Below, one piece after another: positions 3,195-51,644 of a stretch of DNA of 64,000 nt. The first letter of the stretch is position 1; every line of letters starts with the position of its first letter. The notes under the pieces were generated by a model. That model worked only from the letters and a program-made list of their open reading frames with translations. It made no database searches and was not told the DNA's origin. The translations under genes and the position numbers were made by a program. The DNA lies in assembly GCA_021775595.1 (NCBI GenBank), contig JAJFHN010000014.1:1-64000 (forward strand). The letters are read 5' to 3'. The DNA is from Hyphomicrobiales bacterium (GTDB lineage: Bacteria > Pseudomonadota > Alphaproteobacteria > Rhizobiales > Methyloligellaceae).

Positions 3195-5068
3195 TGGGGC
3201 GTCACACCGGTCGCGTCGTGAGCACGCATTAGCGCCTCGATCATATTGGCGCCCTTATGGATAAAGAGGGCGATGCCGGCCTCGCTGAGTGCCGTGCGCG
3301 TCTCGCCCGGCCGTCCAGCGAGCGCAATGAGGTCCGCGCCCGCATCCTTCAGCGCAATGGCTGCAGCTTCGGCGAGCGCCTCGTAGGTTTCGTCGGAGCC
3401 GCAGAGACAGGCGATCGGCGCGCCGCTTGCTTTGAAAGCCTTGGCCGCGGTCTGGGCTGTGTCAAAGCCGCCCTCATCCAACGCTTCGATCCCGCCAGAC
3501 GCAAACAGGTTGCGGGCATAGTTGGCGCGCGCGGCAAAGCCTGAGCGCTCGCCAAGATTGGCCAGGAAGACTTGCGGGCGATGTCCGCGGGTCTTGGCAT
3601 ACGCCTCGGCGTCATCGCGCAGCCGCTCGAAGGCTTGCGCCAGCCGGCGCAGAGGCACCGGCTCGACGGTGACGGCGGGATCATCGAGAGAATCAGGCAG
3701 GGGGTTTGGTTTCAGCGCAGGAATTGATTCAGCCAAATGGGGAAAGGCATTGATACCAATGAGCTCGCTTTGAGATGTTGCGAGCGCGCCAGCGCGGCTC
3801 TCAGCGCTCTTGGCCAGCTCGGCCTGCACGACGCCTTGGGCCAAAGCAGCCGCCATGCCGCCCTTGGCTTCGATCTCTTGGAACATATCCCAGGCCTTGG
3901 CGGCGAGCTCGTAAGAGAGCGCCTCCACATACCAGCTGCCGCCCGGCGCATCGACCACGCGGCCCAGATGCGATTCCTCCTGCATGATGAGCTGGGTGTT
4001 TCGCGCGATCCGGCGCATGAGGGCGTCGGGCTGGCCCAACAGGGCGCCATAGGGCAATACGCTGATCGCGTCGGCACCGCCCAAGGCAGCGGCGGCGCAG
4101 GCGGCGGTCGTGCGCAGCATGTTCACGTCTGGATCGAGCTTGCTCATCATGCGGGCCGATGTCTGCGCCGTGATCCGCACGTCCATCAGAGCTTTTTGGG
4201 CGCCGCAGGCTTGAGCGATTCTCGCCAGCAACATGCGGGCAGCGCGCAATTTGGCGATCGAGAGAAACAGGTCGGCGTCGCATGCGAGCGCGACCGCGAC
4301 TTGGCTCAGACCCTGTTCGGGGGTCAGTCCTCCCGCTTCCATGGCGCGCAAATAGGCGGCCAGAGTGGCGGCGAGGCAGGCGAGCTCCTGGGCTTCGCTT
4401 GCGCCGCCATCGTGATAGGGGCGCCCGTCGGCGAGCAATGCAGCGACACCGGGAAATTGCTCGTGCGTTAGGTGCGCGAGAGCGGCGGCGGCGGAGAGGC
4501 ACTCTTCGAAGGATTGATCGAGACCGCCCGCGCGTGCGCACGCGCCCAGGGGATCGGCGCCAAACCCGCCCTTCAGCGCGTCGGCGGCCAACCCTCGCTC
4601 GGCCCAAAAGGCCTGCAGGATTTCGGCAGTGGCGGCGAAATGGATGCCGGGCTCGAGATCGAGCCGAATAAAATCAAGATGGACGCCCTCCAGCGCGCGG
4701 GCGAGATCTTGGACGCCGGCCACAGCCAGACCGGCTTGCTCGGGCGCGGCGATGCGCAGCGCGATGGCGCTCGCGCCACCTTCCAGATCAGCGAGAATTT
4801 GGCGATTGGTTTCAGGCGCATCTGCGCTCCAGTGGAGCTGGCAAATGTCCCAGGCGGGCGAGGCCGGCAGTGCTCCCAGGCCGCGCGCGAAAGGCGCCGC
4901 AGCCGAGCGGCTGGCGTCTTCGTCGCCCAGCCCGTAAAGCGGTTTGACGGAAATCCGGTCGAGCGTGTGCGCGGTCAGCGCCTCAAGCCCGCCGCCCTTA
5001 AGCGCCTTTTCGGCCAGGGCGCGCCAGGCGGCTTCGTCGTGCGCCTCAAATTCGGTGGCCAGCTTCAC
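3191..5068 (-). CDS. Methylmalonyl-CoA mutase small subunit
   Basis: Non-catalytic partner of the cobalamin-dependent mutase, about 625 residues, homologous to the large subunit but with a degenerate cobalamin domain: no DxHxxG is present, and the corresponding region reads [17 protein letters not shown]. The barrel region keeps [25 protein letters not shown], parallel to [25 protein letters not shown] in the large subunit. I chose the GTG start (VKLATEF) because AAAGGAG lies eight bases upstream; a longer reading frame adds nine residues that overlap this ribosome-binding site. Its stop overlaps the large-subunit start (ATGA). It is divergent from the ATPase gene across a gap of about 100 bases that should hold both promoters. 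Confidence 0.93.
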
Positions 5069-46483: not shown

Positions 46484-46589
46484 ATTTGGCGCGACGGATT
46501 TGATCCGCTCGATGCGTACAAGCTCCCAGAATGGCCGCGCACCCGACTGTGACCCCCATCGCGGCGGCTAAACGCAAGGAGCGACAACA

Positions 46590-47078
46590 ATGACGAATCG
46601 AGGAACTATGCTGGCCGCGATAACGATGGCCGGATTTATGGCAGCGGCCGGCAGCTCGGTCATAGCGTTCGCCGACGACGGCGTCCGCGCAGGCCAACCG
46701 AACGCCACGCACGTTAAATGGCGCGGCGGTCATGGCGGCCATGGCAAGGGCTGGATGAAACGCGCTGATGCCAACAAGGACGGCACGATAACTCTGGAAG
46801 AGACGCTGAGCGTCCGCGATGAAAAATTCGAACGTTTCGATACGGACAAGAATGGCGTGGTGACCGACGAAGAAGTTCAGGCGGTCGTGCAAGAGCGTGT
46901 TGATCGCATGTCGACGCGGATCGTTCGCAAATACGATCAAGACCGCGACGGCAAGATCACGCGGGACGAATTCGACCGGTTCGCTAAGGAGCGGTTCGGG
47001 TGGATGGATTTGGACGATAACGGCAAGCTCGAAAAAGACGAATTGCCGAAGTCCATGAAGCACAAAACGAAGAAGTGA
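46590..47078 (+). CDS. Periplasmic EF-hand calcium-binding protein
   Basis: A 162-residue exported protein. A signal peptide (to about residue 28, ...SVIAFADD) precedes a His/Gly-rich linker (WRGGHGGHGKGW) and four canonical EF-hand loops: DANKDGTITLEE, DTDKNGVVTDEE, DQDRDGKITRDE and DLDDNGKLEKDE. All keep the calcium-coordinating Asp and Gly positions. The ribosome-binding site CAAGGAG lies about eight bases upstream. An ECF sigma factor gene follows 21 bases after the stop, so the protein may sense or buffer calcium for that system; this is inferred from context. Confidence 0.92.
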   Translation: MTNRGTMLAAITMAGFMAAAGSSVIAFADDGVRAGQPNATHVKWRGGHGGHGKGWMKRADANKDGTITLEETLSVRDEKFERFDTDKNGVVTDEEVQAVVQERVDRMSTRIVRKYDQDRDGKITRDEFDRFAKERFGWMDLDDNGKLEKDELPKSMKHKTKK

Positions 47079-47099
47079 CTGCAGACCCCAGTAACGGGA

Positions 47100-47735
47100 A
47101 TGTATGGCGTGGAGCCAGCAACACGGGCGCCGGATCGCGAGCTTGCCTCGCGGCCCGGCCGCCACAATCAGCACCAGGCGTTGCGTGACGGTCGGCTCAT
47201 GGCGGCCGTCGCGCGGGGCGACCAGCATGCCTATGGCGAGCTCGTCGAAACAGAATTGCCGCGCGTCGTCGCCGTGGCTCGCAGGGTACTGGGCAACGAC
47301 AGCGAGGCGGACGATGTCGCGCAGGAGGCGTTGCTTCGATTGTGGCGACAGGCCGCCGACTGGCGGGCGGGCGAGGCCCGGGTCCGGACCTGGCTTTACC
47401 GGGTGGCGGTGAACCTGGCGATAGATCGATTGCGGCGCCGGCGCGAGGAAACGGGCACCGAGGCGCCCGAGATCGCGGAACCGGCAAGCCAGCAGCGTCA
47501 GTTGGAGGATCAGGATCTGGCTGCCGTCGTGAACGACGCGCTGCAGAAGCTGCCCGAGCGCCAACGCATCGCGCTCACGCTGTTTCACTATGAGGGCGAG
47601 ACAATGGCCGATGTGGCCGAGGTCATGGATACGAGCCCGGATGCGGTCGAATCGCTGCTCGGGCGGGGGCGACGAGCACTGAAGAAGCAACTCGCGCATC
47701 ATTGGCAAAACATCATGCCGGACGCGCAAAACTAA
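47100..47735 (+). CDS. ECF-type RNA polymerase sigma factor
   Basis: The 211-residue sigma-70-family factor has region 2 at about 40-115 (SEADDVAQEALLRLWRQAAD, WLYRVAVNLAIDRLRRRRE) and region 4 at about 145-198 (LPERQRIALTLFHYEGETMA, then a helix-turn-helix ending ESLLGRGRRALKK). The N-terminal 30 residues are variable and may not all be translated; GGGA directly before ATG is a poor ribosome-binding site. Downstream membrane-protein genes are the likely regulators. No C-terminal SnoaL-type extension is present. Confidence 0.93.
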   Translation: MYGVEPATRAPDRELASRPGRHNQHQALRDGRLMAAVARGDQHAYGELVETELPRVVAVARRVLGNDSEADDVAQEALLRLWRQAADWRAGEARVRTWLYRVAVNLAIDRLRRRREETGTEAPEIAEPASQQRQLEDQDLAAVVNDALQKLPERQRIALTLFHYEGETMADVAEVMDTSPDAVESLLGRGRRALKKQLAHHWQNIMPDAQN

Positions 47736-47750
47736 CGGGGCTGGAGAGCA

Positions 47751-48257
47751 ATGACGACGAGAGACGACATAAATCGCCTTGCGGAGGTGCTGGAGATCTT
47801 CGGTCCTGAAGCCGAACGCTGGCCGGCGGCAGAGCGCGATCGGCTTGAGGCGCTTGTCGGACGCGAAGAGGCGGCGGGCAAGCTCGTTGTCGAGGCACGA
47901 GCGCTTGCCGCCGTCATGGCCCATGCGCCAGCTGGTGCGGCGAGTGCCGAGCTCAAGGCGCGCATTCTGGCAGCCGCTTCACCCGAGGCGCAGGGCGCGC
48001 CAATCATCGTCCGGGCGCCGGAAAGTCCGCTGCGCCGGTTATTCGGATCGGGCTGGAGCTTCGGTCCGGCGTGGCCTTCGGCGGCGGTGATGGCCGCCTC
48101 GTTGGCGTGCGGTATTTATCTCGGCGCGAGCGGGCTCGCTCAGCCCGTGTTCGACGACGCCTTTACGATGGCATCGCTCGACAGCGGTGTGGAGGATGCG
48201 GAGGATCTGTTCAAGGAAGACGATGAGAGCAACTTGGGCGAGGAGAGCATGCTGTGA
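47751..48257 (+). CDS. Single-helix membrane protein, probable regulator of the sigma factor
   Basis: A 168-residue protein of no family I can name. A soluble, helical N-terminus (MTTRDDINRLAEVLEIFGPE AERWPAAER, about 1-100) is followed by one membrane helix (AAVMAASLACGIYLGASGLA, about 108-127) and an acidic, presumably periplasmic C-terminus ending GEESML. Place and topology are those of an anti-sigma factor, but no zinc motif (HxxxCxxC) is present. The last codons contain AGGAG and serve as ribosome-binding site for the next gene, whose GTG overlaps the TGA stop. Its helix and tail recur in the next gene. Confidence 0.8.
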   Translation: MTTRDDINRLAEVLEIFGPEAERWPAAERDRLEALVGREEAAGKLVVEARALAAVMAHAPAGAASAELKARILAAASPEAQGAPIIVRAPESPLRRLFGSGWSFGPAWPSAAVMAASLACGIYLGASGLAQPVFDDAFTMASLDSGVEDAEDLFKEDDESNLGEESML

Positions 48258-48675
48258 GCGAGATCAAGCAGAAATTGCCCGTGACGGCCCCGCGACATTG
48301 GCGCTGGGCCCGGTTTGCTCTCGTTGCCTTGCCGACGCTCGGCTTGTTCTCTATCGGCGCTGCCGTGGGTTCGATTTGGGCAACGGCCGTGTTGGCGTCG
48401 GCACTGGCGCTGGGACTCTATCTCAGCACGCAGGGCATGACGCGGTCCGCACTTGACGGCGACACACAGGCCAGCGCGGCAGAGGATGGCGGCGAGGAAG
48501 CCAACACCCGGTATGCAGCCGACGGTAAGACCGTGTTCGGCAAGGAGAGTATGTTGTGAGCACTGACACGCAGAAGACGCCGGGCCGCTGGCGTTGGGGC
48601 CGGATTGCGCTGATCGCGTCGCTGGCTCTGAACCTGCTCTTTGTGGGCGCCATAGGCGGTTCGATTTGGGCCATG
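48105..48675 (+). repeat. Two diverged tandem copies of an approximately 302-base segment
   Basis: Matching landmarks are spaced 302 bases apart: TATCTC at 48117 and 48419, and AGGAGAGCATGCTGTGAGC (48241) against AGGAGAGTATGTTGTGAGC (48543), with two mismatches in 19. The distance from the helix landmark to the overlapping GTG start is 137 bases in both. After the start, both copies reach GGTTCGATTTGGGC (ending near 48381 and 48670). Each copy thus runs from the membrane helix of one gene to the membrane helix of the next. Confidence 0.7.
48254..48559 (+). CDS. Small chimeric membrane protein, 101 aa
   Basis: No family recognised. Residues 1-45 (PRHWRWARFALVALPTLGLF ... AAVGSIWA) resemble the N-terminus of the next gene (GRWRWGRIALIASLALNLLF ... 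GAIGGSIWA). Residues 46-101 (AVLASALALGLYLSTQGM ... FGKESML) resemble the helix and tail of the preceding gene (AVMAASLACGIYLGASGL ... GEESML). It therefore looks like a fusion made at the joint of a tandem duplication, with two adjacent helices. The GTG start overlaps the upstream TGA, and its own stop overlaps the next GTG, so it is translated in series with its neighbours. Role unknown. Confidence 0.8.
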   Translation: MSEIKQKLPVTAPRHWRWARFALVALPTLGLFSIGAAVGSIWATAVLASALALGLYLSTQGMTRSALDGDTQASAAEDGGEEANTRYAADGKTVFGKESML

Positions 48676-49176
48676 TGGGCAGGGTATTGGAGCGGACCGC
48701 GCCACCATGCATTCGCCGGCGCGGTGCACCATCTGATGCGCACGCTGCCCGATGAGAGGCGCAAGACCGTACGCCAAGTGCTGCGAAGCCACCGCGGGGA
48801 AATCAAACCGTTGCGGCGTGAGGTGCGTCAGGCGCGCAGAGCAGCAGCGCGCGCGATGCGACGCGAGCCACTCGATGAGGCGGCCCTGCGGAGCGCATTG
48901 GGTGGGTTGCGCGCGGCCGAAACGAAAATCAGCGCAGCCGTGGCCGAAATGGCCATTGAGCTCGCCAAGACGCTCGATCTGGAAGAGCGGCGCGAATTGC
49001 TGCACGGCTTAGCGCGTCATGGCCGCTTCGGCCGAAAGCGCGGCAAGCGGGGCGGTGAGCGCCGCGGCGACATCGAGCGCGAACAGAGTGCCGACAAAGC
49101 ATCGGAAGGCGCCCCCGCCGACAAAGCCAAGGACGCAACAGTTCAACCGGTCCAGCCGGTCCAACCTAAACCCTAA
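48556..49176 (+). CDS. Periplasmic heavy-metal-sensor/Spy-CpxP-like protein
   Basis: A 206-residue protein with one N-terminal helix (IALIASLALNLLFVGAIGGS) and a periplasmic all-helical domain of the heavy-metal-resistance (CnrX/Spy-like) family: HHLMRTLPDERRKTVRQVLR, LRREVRQARRAAARAMRREP and AVAEMAIELAKTLDLEERRE, where LPxxRR is the LTxxQ-like motif. The C-terminus is basic, then Ala/Asp/Pro-rich. Such proteins commonly stand next to ECF sigma factors and gauge envelope or metal stress. The start GTG overlaps the preceding stop. Its TAA overlaps the stop of the convergent PleC-like gene. Confidence 0.87.
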   Translation: MSTDTQKTPGRWRWGRIALIASLALNLLFVGAIGGSIWAMWAGYWSGPRHHAFAGAVHHLMRTLPDERRKTVRQVLRSHRGEIKPLRREVRQARRAAARAMRREPLDEAALRSALGGLRAAETKISAAVAEMAIELAKTLDLEERRELLHGLARHGRFGRKRGKRGGERRGDIEREQSADKASEGAPADKAKDATVQPVQPVQPKP

Positions 49177-51476
49177 TCGTCTGCGGTCGCGTCACTTGCC
49201 GTCAGAATCGGCTGGGTGGGCAGGATGCAGGTCACCGCGGTGCCTTGGCCCTCTTTGGAGGTGATCTCGATCAAGCCGCCATGCATCTCGATCAGCGACC
49301 GCGAGATTGAGAGCCCCAAACCGCTGCCCTTGTGGCTCTTGGTGAACTGATTTTCGATCTGCTCGAAGGGCTTGCCCAATTTATCGAGTTCACGCGCGGG
49401 GATGCCGACGCCGGTGTCCTTGATGATAATTTTGACCCGCCCTTTGGCGCCGCGCGCCAGCCTGATCCTGACTTCGCCACCCTCGGGCGTGAATTTGACG
49501 GCGTTGGAAAGCAGATTGAGCAGGGTTTGCTTCAAAGCCCGCCTGTCGGCCTCGATCTTGAGGCTGTCGGCGCCGGTGCGCTTGAGTTTCACTTTCCGCT
49601 TCTTGGCGCTTTCGGCCACCACGCGCAGGCTGTCCTCAATGATCTCGCCCAAGTCGAGCTGTTCGATTTCGAGTTGAATGCGGCCCGCCTCGATCTTGGA
49701 CATGTCCAAAATATCGTTGATCACTTCGAGCAGATAGGTGCCGCTCTCATGGATATCGCGGGCGTACTCTTCGTATTTTTCGTTGCCGAGCGGGCCGAAC
49801 AACGCTTGCTGCATGACGTCTGAAAAGCCCAGCACGGCGTTGAGCGGTGTGCGGAGCTCGTGGCTGAAGTTCGCCAAGAACTGAGACTTGCTGCGATTGG
49901 CGGCCTCGGCGCGATTTTTCTCCAGCGCGTATTTCTCGGTCAGATCGACGAGTTGCTGTTTCTGCAGTTCGAGCTCCTGCCTGGAATTGCGCAAATCCGA
50001 CACGGTCGTCTGCAGCTCCTGATCGTGCTCGAACAGTTTCTGTTCGTTCTGTTTGAGGCCGGTGATGTCCACGCTGACGCAGACATAGCCGCCGTCCTTG
50101 GTTCGGCGCTCATCGACATGGAGCCAACGATTGTCCTCCAGCTGAGCCTCATAGGTCCGGGCATGGGAGTCGCCATCGCCCGATACATCAACGCGCTTGA
50201 GCACCGGGGGCTCGCTGGCGGCAGAGAGCACTTGCTCATAAGGCGTGCCGGGGATGACGCTTGAATCGGGCAGATTGTGGAACTGTTGATATTTTGAGTT
50301 ACACAGCACCAGCCTGTTGTCGCTGTCCCACAGCACGAAAGCCTCGGAAATGGATTCAATCGCATCGCGCAGACGGGCGTCGGCCGCCGCGCTCCAATCA
50401 CCGGCTGTCCCGGTTTTATCTTTTTGGCTGACCGCGGCAATGAGATGAGGTTCCCCGCTGGCCTCGTCGCGGATCAGGCGGCCGGCCAGACGCACGTCGA
50501 CCCAATCACCGGCGGCGTTGCGGATGCGGAAATTCTCGTCTAGCGCGTCGGCGTCGTCGGCCATGGCGCGTTGAGCGATGGCATAAAGATCGGTGTCACC
50601 TTGAACAGCTTTGGCGATGTCGTGAAAGGCGATGGGGTCGTCGCTTGGCTCGAGCCCGAGAAGCGTGAACATCGATTGGGACCAGCGCATATTGCCGCGC
50701 GCAATGTTCCAATCCCATAGACCGCATCCGGTTGCGCCCAAGACCTGGTCGAAGGGACCCATCGACGCGGCCAGACCGGGCGCGGCGGCACTTGCTGGGC
50801 GCGACAGGAAGGCGGCGATGATCAGTATCAGCAAAAGACCCGTGGTCGCGAAGATCGTGATGTCGAACACGGCCTCGCGCCACCAGCCTTCAAGCGCGCG
50901 GGCTTGGGGTTGGAACATGGCGAGCTGCATGGCCGAGCCTTCGATGTTGCGAACGGTGACAATGGCCTCGTGCCCGTTGCGCAGAACGACCGGCAACACG
51001 CCGGCCTCAGCGGCGAAGGCCATCAGCGGTTGCTCCGATCCGATGACCTCCTCCATCGGGCGATCGACGCGCGAGAGGTCATAGGGGGCCGTGGCCCGTA
51101 TGCGCCCTTCCGTATCGGCAATCAGGACGATGCGGCCCTCAAGGGTGGCGCGCGGCGGCAGGTTTGCGGCAAGCGTGTTTTGCCAATCATCGCCCGCGCT
51201 AGCGCCAGAAAGCTGATAGCGGGCGGCCACCGAATCGGCGATCAGGCCCAGATCGTCGCGCGCTTTGGCAAGCGCGACGGTCTTGCCATAGAGGATGTGG
51301 CTGGCGGTGCCGGCGACGGTGAGCGCGAAAAAGACCGATATCAGAACGAGGACGGTGCGGCGCAGCGCCGTTTCCGACGGCAAAAGCCGTGCGCCAAGAT
51401 TCGCACGAGGAGTCCCTCGTACTCCACCTGCGGGGAACGAATCCACGCCCCCGCGGACGGATGACGTCCGCGCCAT
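49173..51476 (-). CDS. pleC: PAS sensor histidine kinase, PleC-like
   Basis: A 767-residue membrane kinase. Two helices (about 40-62 and 205-225) bound a periplasmic domain of about 140 residues; two PAS domains (about 245-355 and 370-480) follow, then a coiled coil, then His539 in FLANFSHELRTPLNAVLGF with FGPLGNEKYEEYARDIHESG and INDILDMSKIEAG, the DivJ/PleC signature. ATPase motifs: NLLSNAVKF, DTGVGI, GSGLGLSIS. PleC removes phosphate from DivK in relatives. The glnE-pleC-pepN neighbourhood matches what I recall for rhizobial pleC. The start at 51476 is decided by GAGGGGG six bases upstream; a longer frame (18 residues) has none. Confidence 0.85.
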   Translation of the reverse strand: MARTSSVRGGVDSFPAGGVRGTPRANLGARLLPSETALRRTVLVLISVFFALTVAGTASHILYGKTVALAKARDDLGLIADSVAARYQLSGASAGDDWQNTLAANLPPRATLEGRIVLIADTEGRIRATAPYDLSRVDRPMEEVIGSEQPLMAFAAEAGVLPVVLRNGHEAIVTVRNIEGSAMQLAMFQPQARALEGWWREAVFDITIFATTGLLLILIIAAFLSRPASAAAPGLAASMGPFDQVLGATGCGLWDWNIARGNMRWSQSMFTLLGLEPSDDPIAFHDIAKAVQGDTDLYAIAQRAMADDADALDENFRIRNAAGDWVDVRLAGRLIRDEASGEPHLIAAVSQKDKTGTAGDWSAAADARLRDAIESISEAFVLWDSDNRLVLCNSKYQQFHNLPDSSVIPGTPYEQVLSAASEPPVLKRVDVSGDGDSHARTYEAQLEDNRWLHVDERRTKDGGYVCVSVDITGLKQNEQKLFEHDQELQTTVSDLRNSRQELELQKQQLVDLTEKYALEKNRAEAANRSKSQFLANFSHELRTPLNAVLGFSDVMQQALFGPLGNEKYEEYARDIHESGTYLLEVINDILDMSKIEAGRIQLEIEQLDLGEIIEDSLRVVAESAKKRKVKLKRTGADSLKIEADRRALKQTLLNLLSNAVKFTPEGGEVRIRLARGAKGRVKIIIKDTGVGIPARELDKLGKPFEQIENQFTKSHKGSGLGLSISRSLIEMHGGLIEITSKEGQGTAVTCILPTQPILTASDATADD

Positions 51477-51644
51477 TGCTGGCCCCCTCTGTGTGTTTTT
51501 CCTGAAGGCATCCAGGAAAAACTGCCGCATCGCCGCATCAGCGAATCACTTGGTCATTTGATTCGATTGGGCGGCCTTTTGTCCAGAGAGAACATGTGGA
51601 GAACCTGTGTGTGGATAATCGAGAATCTGTTGGATTTCCGCCGC

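Follow-up and report, generated by a model that had tools for sequence, protein, structure and literature searches.

In the CnrYXH and NccYXH systems of Cupriavidus, an ECF sigma factor, a membrane anti-sigma factor and a periplasmic sensor work together in a three-part logic, with a gene order unlike that of the module described here. In lanmodulin the paired EF loops are separated by 12-residue linkers, and a proline at loop position 2 serves as a lanmodulin criterion. A pairing of an EF-hand protein with an ECF sigma factor has been described in C. vibrioides as CaBP-SigV (CCNA_02838/CCNA_02837; PMC13171946, May 2026): CaBP is periplasmic and its promoter has been mapped, both partners influence each other, with CaBP affecting sigV expression, and both genes respond to EGTA and acid. 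The same authors reported that cabp and sigV are transcribed separately, the sigV promoter being intragenic, which argues against one operon in that species, and they also described SigT dependence; the link between the two proteins at the membrane was left by them as a question mark. According to the parts of the sources used here, the RpoE8 operon of Azospirillum brasilense comprises a sigma factor, a hypothetical protein and a periplasmic heavy metal sensor that are co-induced (PMC12826043), while the RpoE1 (ECF26) operon of S. meliloti, SMc01418-rpoE1-ecfR1, is involved in the sulfite response (PMC3511301, PMC6180224).

Organization of the locus

The window, i.e., the whole 64-kb stretch of DNA analysed, contains between positions 46590 and 49176 five genes on the plus strand. 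A check of the open reading frames, frames and junctions gave the same picture as the first reading, which had described five co-directional genes with gaps of 21 (EF/SIG) and 15 (SIG/ANT) bases followed by two GTG/TGA overlaps; both overlaps (ANT/CHI and CHI/MET, -4 each) are the 4-base GTGA. The features are as follows:

46491..46518, plus strand: predicted autoregulated promoter, GCGACGGA-N16-CGTA, with -35-like CGACGGA at 46492 and -10-like CGTA at 46515
46590..47078, plus strand: EF, secreted four-EF-hand protein, 162 aa (Pfam EF-hands, loop positions, hydrophobic N-terminus)
47100..47735, plus strand: SIG, ECF sigma factor, 211 aa (Sigma70 r2 and r4 domains)
47751..48257, plus strand: ANT, single-pass membrane anti-sigma candidate, 168 aa (position after SIG, invariant residues, AF2 helices)
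48254..48559, plus strand: CHI, chimeric protein, 101 aa (MET-derived front, ANT-derived back)
48556..49176, plus strand: MET, membrane-anchored periplasmic sensor with a CnrX/Spy-like fold, 206 aa (PF13801, AF2 model, transmembrane helix)
49173..51530, minus strand: PAS histidine kinase outside the module, convergent, with a 4-base overlap with the MET end

The histidine kinase homologue follows MET convergently in 9 of 10 family relatives, the contig of the remaining one (L029) stopping at MET. The two flanking genes scanned encode a GNAT acetyltransferase and the histidine kinase, and the reading frames further out look, by eye, GlnE-like and aminopeptidase-like. No cation efflux gene was present among the open reading frames flanking the module in the window. 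The same EF-SIG-ANT-MET order is found in relatives, so a chance arrangement is excluded.

Properties of the EF-hand protein, the sigma factor and the anti-sigma candidate

EF has a hydrophobic N-terminus and up to four stretches matching Pfam EF-hands; its loops start at residues 60, 84, 116 and 140, i.e., 24 residues from start to start within each pair, and it is probably a calcium-binding secreted protein. Four loops and 12-residue linkers within the pairs are shared with lanmodulin, but EF reached only 45.6 bits with NF053806, far under the family cut-off of 135, and lacks the proline at loop position 2. Homologues with 34–47% identity, one of them truncated, are encoded upstream of SIG in five family relatives.

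SIG was assigned by Pfam (Sigma70_r2, E 3.8e-21; r4_2, E 3e-14) and by NCBIfam NF004113 (214.5 bits against a cut-off of 208), and is 52–54% identical to its counterparts in 10 relatives. ANT, encoded directly 3' of SIG in the relatives as well, is made up of a helical N-terminal domain bearing a G..RWP motif, a transmembrane segment at approximately 107–131 with G121xxxG125 and a short acidic periplasmic tail. Residues G18, W24, P25, G121 and G125 were invariant in 47 sequences, and helices within 3–76 were mostly confident in the AF2 model. No Pfam family matched ANT, and its NCBIfam 'anti-sigma factor' match was weak (E 9.2e-7, under its cut-off); NF052375 was found in 9 of 11 ANT members, the window ANT being sub-threshold. 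Comparison with CnrY and with known folds in general gave neither a PDB sequence match to CnrY nor a significant fold match for this small domain, so the anti-sigma role is based on position, architecture and the sub-threshold NCBIfam match, which make ANT a likely membrane-bound inhibitor of SIG. Features of zinc-binding anti-sigma factors (HxxxCxxC, zf-HC2) were absent from ANT, which has a single Cys, in agreement with its initial annotation as a non-zinc candidate.

Properties of the sensor

MET belongs to the Metal_resist family (PF13801, E 6.7e-29) and has a transmembrane helix seen both in the AF2 model and in the hydropathy profile; N26, within this helix, was invariant in 43 of 43 sequences. 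Among the PDB chains, NccX and CnrX were the best matches to the MET model, with Z 12.7 and 2.2 A over 109 residues for CnrX (4wwf), a score to be read with the caveat that helical bundles score high by chance. The Foldseek E-values were weak (best 1.4e-2), with the CnrX rows ranking above the unrelated ones. The fold match suggests a system built like CnrYXH and bears out the initial reading of MET as a Spy/CnrX-like sensor. At the level of sequence, CnrX was not among the best 60 of the 107 PDB matches of MET and Spy appeared at 0.093; ferritin light chains (E 6e-4 and above) were dismissed as chance helical similarity. In CnrX the metal ligands are His42, His46, Glu63, His119 and Met123. 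In MET, His50 is present in 8 of 11 family sequences, including the window; the wider set A5 does not conserve it. Position 130 is His in 9 of 10 family relatives and Ala in the window.

Origin of the chimeric gene

Residues 1–43 of CHI (48254–48382) derive from the front of MET and residues 44–101 (48383–48556) from the back of ANT. The alignment scores were 91 for the front (maximum of 55 in block shuffles) and 111 for the back (maximum of 59), neither reached in 500 shuffles, so that the chimeric two-helix protein proposed from the first reading is real. The two blocks share only 67 and 57% DNA identity with their parents, which rules out an assembly or recent-copy artefact. Of the parental features the chimera retains the signals for coupling and the ESML found at the C-terminus of ANT; it has lost N26 of MET, G125 of ANT and the domains presumed to serve in sigma binding and sensing. 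A CHI-like gene between ANT and MET was found in none of 179 loci, judging by distances between the two genes that were estimated from profile matches. By sequence comparison, CHI is the lineage-specific product of a tandem duplication, found among the genomes compared in the source genome only.

There is about an even chance that CHI is a relic whose reading frame stays open only because a stop or a frameshift would uncouple the translation of MET from that of ANT: it lies between two GTGA couplings and has lost invariant residues of both parents, but dN (0.30 and 0.48 in the clear blocks) is well below dS (1.0–1.4, near saturation) even in the N-terminal block, though these pairwise values include the constraint on the parent genes. 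A working third regulator, such as a decoy competing for the ANT or MET helix, would explain why 101 codons stayed open at such dS and why the coupling signals and the ANT-type end were retained; it is nevertheless doubtful in view of the lost residues and domains, of the occurrence of CHI in one genome only, and of dN and dS values obtained from few codons without a statistical test.

Distribution of the module

The set of 188 loci included 10 from the family, 20 from the order, 40 from the class, 38 from the genus Caulobacter and 80 named loci (the best 80 of 566), with L031 (no ANT) and L182 (the same place as L147) left out and some genomes, such as L176 and L219, possibly counted twice. 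The order loci were 20 of the 67 other matching genomes (20 of the best 21), and the class loci were hand-picked as 40 of 110 matches, mostly from the better-scoring part. SIG, ANT and MET occurred together in 179 of the 188 loci, four of the other nine being at contig ends. The 70 loci from the family, the order and the class were selected by an ANT match, so that the presence of ANT in them is by construction; in the 118 loci picked by the sigma factor alone, ANT came next in all 118 (E < 0.01) and MET was present in 114, the other four being at contig ends. The GTGA overlap of 4 bases joins ANT and MET directly in family relatives. In one locus, L101, an EF-hand ORF stands in place of MET.

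The module was present in 11 of 30 family genomes, and ANT matches were obtained in 68 of the 199 genomes of the order and in 111 of the 387 of the class. The Caulobacter family was entered through HfaD. In 55 genomes of the genus (at least 95% complete), the SIG profile found an EF-linked sigma factor in 38 (E 5e-58 to 5e-51, one 3.9e-46), with EF adjoining SIG in all 38 loci examined; 12 genomes had no match at 1e-30 and five had a more distant match only. EF, SIG, ANT and MET thus form a recurrent, patchily distributed alphaproteobacterial module. The five-gene set was dropped as an unknown conserved system, since four genes recur and the fifth is lineage-specific. Accordingly, the initial view that the full set could not be named stands only for the fusion: the core of four genes is found repeatedly within the class, and the EF-hand and sigma pair has been published (PMC13171946).

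Predicted promoter and regulon

Of 184 loci, 142 have the motif CGACGGA-N14..17-CGT 5' of the module (mean of 0.4 and maximum of 2 in 50 shuffles) and 42 lack it, 23 of the latter being among the 39 class loci. All eight family relatives having upstream sequence have the 16-base spacer, and the motif at 46492 is the only occurrence within the window. It lines up in register with the promoter mapped for cabp, GGAAA-N13-CGTTCA (PMC13171946), and differs from the Caulobacter form by GGAT for GGAA and a spacer one base longer. The strict form GGAAN-N13-CGTT was found in none of 10 family relatives; GGAAN-N13-CGT[TA] was present upstream in 35 of 38 Caulobacter-genus loci. A conserved promoter motif is present in front of EF, and the initial view of the locus as one regulatory unit is supported.

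The pattern GCGACGGA-N16-CGTW had 36 sites in the 11 module-bearing family genomes versus 12 in the 19 without the module, the reversed-pattern control giving 11 and 29, respectively. BA14K-type genes were recurrent predicted targets in five genomes (three by Pfam, two by motif), a SIMPL gene lies 39 bases past a promoter site in genome G000, and the source genome has three motif sites, one of them inside an ORF. Several other leads were rejected: housekeeping sigma-70 promoters or terminators in the region were no more frequent than in shuffles; models of GGAAT with a spacer of 14–18 gave no excess, after which the 13-base spacer stood out; and the published sigV promoter pattern matched in 13 of 390 Caulobacteraceae, none in genus g368, with 11 of the 13 being one identical 33-mer from another genus, read as unrelated. 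A search of Rfam with the conserved element of seven relatives gave no match.

Comparison with described systems

The locus has in common with CaBP-SigV an ECF sigma factor gene immediately preceded by that of a secreted EF-hand protein, a promoter apparently of the same type and, judging from SIG profile matches in Caulobacter, an orthologous sigma factor. It differs in having four EF loops instead of three and a longer promoter spacer, and in the two membrane genes and the chimera that follow, in contrast to the two monocistronic genes described. In a near relative with EF-SIG-ANT-MET (L161), six of eight published NA1000 primers were located in the expected order, with no mismatch for Procabp5, one each for sigV-5, sigV-del and sigV-3, and three and four for the two cabpXho primers; the other two (cabp 5' and Procabp3') had five to seven mismatches in the four best genomes, and no exact sigV-5 match was found in the Caulobacter-genus genomes searched. 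Judged from these other Caulobacter genomes, the module very probably includes the CaBP-SigV pair of C. vibrioides.

With CnrYXH/NccYXH the locus shares a periplasmic membrane-anchored sensor modelled with the CnrX fold, and CnrH is among the PDB matches of the SIG profile (E 1.7e-12, below sigma-H, SigW and SigE); the differences are the absence of an efflux gene beside the module and the added EF-hand gene. The order of the RpoE8 operon is also annotated in A. lipoferum and A. ramasamyi records, which differ from the window in having no EF gene annotated beside the triad and an RND permease upstream. The RpoE1 operon, in the part of its description used here, likewise starts with a secreted protein gene followed by a sigma factor and a single-pass anti-sigma factor and has a GGAAT-type -35, but its first protein has 'lipoprotein 15' motifs, a MET counterpart is unmentioned there and the response is to sulfite. 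The window promoter resembles the published ECF26 elements (-35 GGAATA, -10 GT).

Proposed mechanism and alternatives

We regard the module as probably a transmembrane switch of the CnrYXH type, to which an EF-hand protein has been added as an accessory. This reading is based on the EF-SIG-ANT-MET order, one conserved promoter motif and invariant residues in both membrane helices, and on a CnrX-like sensor fold predicted from the model. The cytoplasmic helical domain of ANT would hold SIG, the ANT helix (GxxxG) would pack on the MET helix (Asn26), and the periplasmic domain of MET would keep ANT in the holding state. A change in the cell envelope (cation, pH or damage) would alter MET and free SIG, which would then transcribe from CGACGGA-N16-CGTA and produce more EF, SIG, ANT and MET, a positive feedback with its own brake. 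SIG might also raise a few envelope proteins: the SIMPL-domain protein in the source genome, and BA14K and an RND adaptor-like protein in relatives. As a secreted, probably calcium-binding output, EF would buffer calcium in the periplasm or report on it, with a feedback on MET/ANT, and CHI most likely still inserts into the membrane, where it may weakly modulate the ANT-MET pairing or be kept only as a coupled ORF.

One alternative gives EF the leading role, as a true calcium sensor whose apo or Ca-loaded form binds MET or the ANT tail as the main gate; such gating has been suggested for CaBP and SigV by the Caulobacter authors, who observed the effect of CaBP on sigV expression and the responses to EGTA and acid (PMC13171946). 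EF indeed adjoins SIG in 127 of the 188 loci, and in every Caulobacter locus examined, but SIG-ANT-MET and the same promoter can persist without it: the other 61 loci (four at contig ends), Paraburkholderia among them, have no EF upstream, and G025 keeps the remaining module with a 70-aa EF remnant without loops. The promoter motif was present in 31 of 60 loci counted as EF-less, two of which (L094 and L230) do carry EF. The absence of EF from about a third of the loci makes an accessory or output role more likely for it than that of core sensor and means that calcium cannot be the core signal in general; we consider this alternative unlikely. We give equally little credence to a system for sensing a transition metal (Ni, Co, Zn or Cu) in which MET binds the metal, as in CnrYXH: the modelled fold, the frequent His50 and His130 of the family and the RND efflux permease adjoining the triad in the two Azospirillum records speak for it, but the window MET has Ala at 130, His50 is not conserved in the wider set and no efflux gene lies beside the module. 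Calcium or metal status, as initially proposed, is therefore only a candidate signal. A calcium-tuned version of the CnrYXH-type switch, in which the lanmodulin-spaced secreted EF is a diffusible ligand of the MET/ANT pair and the duplication-born CHI, part sensor and part anti-sigma, vies with both parents for contact between the helices, appears quite improbable.

Implications

The pairing of an EF-hand protein with an ECF sigma factor is known already (PMC13171946), and only the fusion gene is peculiar to this locus. ANT and MET, directly downstream in Caulobacter genomes, are obvious and testable candidates for the missing membrane link between CaBP and SigV, and their genes suggest that the CnrYXH-like switch serves the envelope in many alphaproteobacteria and is not a speciality of metal resistance. 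Regulons can be predicted from the conserved promoter, and CHI clearly exemplifies the birth of a new membrane gene between two translationally coupled genes.

Gene organization and predicted proteins

The arrangement described in the initial annotation, five one-strand ORFs with gaps of 21 and 15 bases followed by two overlaps and headed by a four-EF-hand gene, was recovered as described:

EF, 46590-47078, + strand, EF-hand protein gene with four EF-hand loops
SIG, 47100-47735, + strand, ECF sigma factor with both ECF regions
ANT, 47751-48257, + strand, membrane anti-sigma candidate; no family in Pfam, sub-threshold NCBIfam anti-sigma match
CHI, 48254-48559, + strand, MET-front/ANT-back hybrid
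MET, 48556-49176, + strand, predicted CnrX-like periplasmic sensor with a Metal_resist domain

Both overlaps are 4 bases long, each GTGA. EF, SIG, ANT and MET are referred to below as the module, and the last three as the triad. The loops within each EF pair are 24 residues apart start to start, a short spacing like that of lanmodulin; lanmodulin was among the best PDB sequence matches, but the EF of the window lacks the Pro at position 2 of its loops. The gene at 49173-51530 encodes a PAS histidine kinase; it points towards the module and its end overlaps MET by 4 bases; its homologues are convergent, beyond MET, in nine of the ten family relatives.

The proposed Spy/CnrX-like sensor was supported by the predicted MET structure (43 sequences, mean pLDDT 80.6), whose best matches were NccX and CnrX (Foldseek E 1.4e-2 to 8.4e-2), with a VIA Z of 12.7 to 4wwf (2.2 A, 109 residues), although a Z of this size can arise by chance among helical bundles. 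The rows for CnrX covered the domain and stood clearly above the unrelated rows of the match list, and ZraP, the Salmonella VirG-like protein STV, CpxP and Spy came next. The ANT model (pLDDT 74.5) had a confident helical N-terminus, and its fold search gave no significant match.

Distribution of the module

The module was present in 11 of 30 family genomes, the window's included. All ten relatives bearing it had SIG-ANT-MET and none had CHI; ANT and MET overlapped by 4 bases in nine of them (start codons as called), and in the tenth (L029), where MET runs off the contig, their distance was estimated at -4. ANT matches (E up to 0.001) were found in 68/199 order and 111/387 class genomes, so that the module is widespread but patchy.

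Altogether 188 loci were fetched: 10 from the family, 20 from the order, 40 from the class, 38 from the genus Caulobacter and 80 from named genomes (the best 80 of 566). With this limit on the named set, SIG was followed by ANT in all 188 and ANT by MET in 179 (four of the nine misses at contig ends), and at least two EF loops lay just upstream of SIG in 127; the 61 loci without EF there include four with contig ends. ANT was the criterion of selection for the loci of family, order and class, so its presence carries independent weight only in the 118 Caulobacter and named loci selected by SIG (named: best 80 of 566), where ANT followed SIG in 118/118 and MET was present in 114, the other four being at contig ends.

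In 178 of the 179 loci ANT and MET were an estimated -70 to +62 bases apart; an inserted gene in the exception, L169 (+133), was rejected in favor of a frameshift within MET. The annotation of Phaeobacter sp. G2 reads EF-hand, sigma factor, hypothetical protein and periplasmic heavy metal sensor, and the triad without EF is annotated in Azospirillum lipoferum and A. ramasamyi and occurs in the Paraburkholderia loci. At L101 an EF-hand ORF (about 4205-4612, module strand) lies downstream of ANT, occupying the place of MET. The EF of genome G025 (L026/L289) has lost its loops and keeps a signal peptide and C-terminal tail, with promoter, SIG, ANT and MET intact; that of G026 (L027) looks degenerate, as the profile matched it only in part and loops were not seen.

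Relation to the Caulobacter CaBP-SigV system

According to PMC13171946, CaBP is a periplasmic EF-hand protein encoded beside the ECF factor SigV; the two influence each other's expression, EGTA and acid induce, and the authors write that they have yet to identify the membrane component. The Caulobacter family was located via the holdfast protein HfaD. Of 55 genomes of the genus, 43 matched the SIG profile at 1e-30, 38 closely and five more distantly, and 12 did not. All 38 close loci had EF-SIG-ANT and 36 also MET, the other two being at contig ends.

The published NA1000 primers fitted four genus genomes best, with mismatches of 0 or 1 for Procabp5, 1 for sigV-5, 1 or 2 for sigV-del, 1 to 5 for sigV-3 and 3 or 4 for two cabpXho primers; the remaining two did not fit in these four. 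The fitting primers were in the expected order in two of them (L161 and L148). An exact sigV-5 match was found in none of 75 genus genomes, and a one-mismatch match in four. The EF-SIG gap was 26 bases in 17/30 loci (first start codon taken), the same value that follows from the start sites given in PMC13171946 (87 and 58 bases) once the stop codon is subtracted. We strongly infer that sigV of NA1000 is followed by ANT and MET. Within the literature searched, CCNA_02837/CCNA_02838 were mentioned only in PMC13171946, and CCNA_02835/CCNA_02836 were not mentioned.

Promoter motif and predicted regulon

GGAAN and CGT[TA] were paired at a 13-base spacer in 61 loci and in at most five at any other spacer from 8 to 19. 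Of the 184 loci whose upstream sequence reached at least 200 bases (named: best 80 of 566), CGACGGA-N14 to N17-CGT preceded the first gene in 142, against a mean of 0.4 and a maximum of 2 in 50 shuffles: 8/8 in the family, 18/19 in the order, 16/39 in the class, 37/38 in Caulobacter and 63/80 in the named set. It was absent upstream in 42, the class set most. The spacer is 15 in most loci and 16 in the window and in all eight family relatives of this set; the motif occurs once in the 64-kb window, and its position agrees in register with that of the cabp promoter as mapped. The strict Caulobacter form was found in 0/10 family loci.

The search for target promoters, the module's own included, gave three GCGACGGA-N16-CGTW sites in the window's genome: a predicted one at the module, a predicted one 39 bases ahead of a SIMPL-domain gene, and a third that falls within an ORF. 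The 11 module-bearing family genomes held 36 such sites and the 19 without the module 12, against 11 and 29 for a reversed-pattern control, genome sizes differing. BA14K-type genes stood at sites in five relatives (L275, L302 and L306 by Pfam, L301 and L307 by motif), and the single cases were L291, with a second EF-hand gene, and L276, with a gene that by eye is RND adaptor-like; at several other sites a convincing gene start was not found.

In seven relatives (L286, L287, L288, L290, L293, L303, L308) a common conserved element closely follows a promoter of the module type, GCGACGGA-N16-CGTA. It has C-rich stretches and a consensus fold of -69.8 vs a mean of -22.0 in 50 column shuffles; of its 46 pairs, 12 are changed on both sides and 10 are broken in at least one sequence, and an Rfam search gave no match. 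The element is probably non-coding and may be a small RNA that belongs to the regulon.

Origin of the chimeric gene

The chimeric two-helix protein of the initial annotation proved a hybrid: CHI residues 13-43 are 55% identical to MET residues 9-39 and residues 43-101 match the last 59 of ANT at 32% identity, with alignment scores above every one of 500 block shuffles; neither similarity continues past the joint. A DNA repeat with 302-base spacing spans both GTGA overlaps. Such a pattern would be expected of a tandem duplication that reached from the membrane helix of ANT to that of MET, with both genes left intact and a MET-front/ANT-back hybrid between them. The age of the copies rules out an assembly error as well as a fresh event (dS 1.0 and 1.3, dN 0.30 and 0.48 in the two clear blocks). 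CHI has neither the presumed sigma-binding domain nor the sensor domain and, from the alignments, retains only the G121 equivalent of the invariant MET N26 (43 sequences) and ANT G121 and G125 (47 sequences). With its first helix N-in, the second would return the ANT tail to the cytoplasm.

Proposed function

Parts of this picture are known separately; the joined four-gene module and promoter were not found in the literature searched, which included PMC3511301, PMC6180224, PMC10880074, PMC8103513, PMC8999054, PMC12826043, PMC12322963 and PMC8315932, and ECF classification papers may list the neighborhood. EF as the primary sensor is the less likely explanation, because the rest of the module persists without it and because all that is left of it in G025 is a 70-aa remnant devoid of loops. 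The best reading is a CnrYXH-like switch, in which ANT would hold SIG, MET would gate ANT across the membrane and EF, under the same promoter, would be a secreted accessory; binding between the parts is inferred, as are the signal and whatever role CHI may have.
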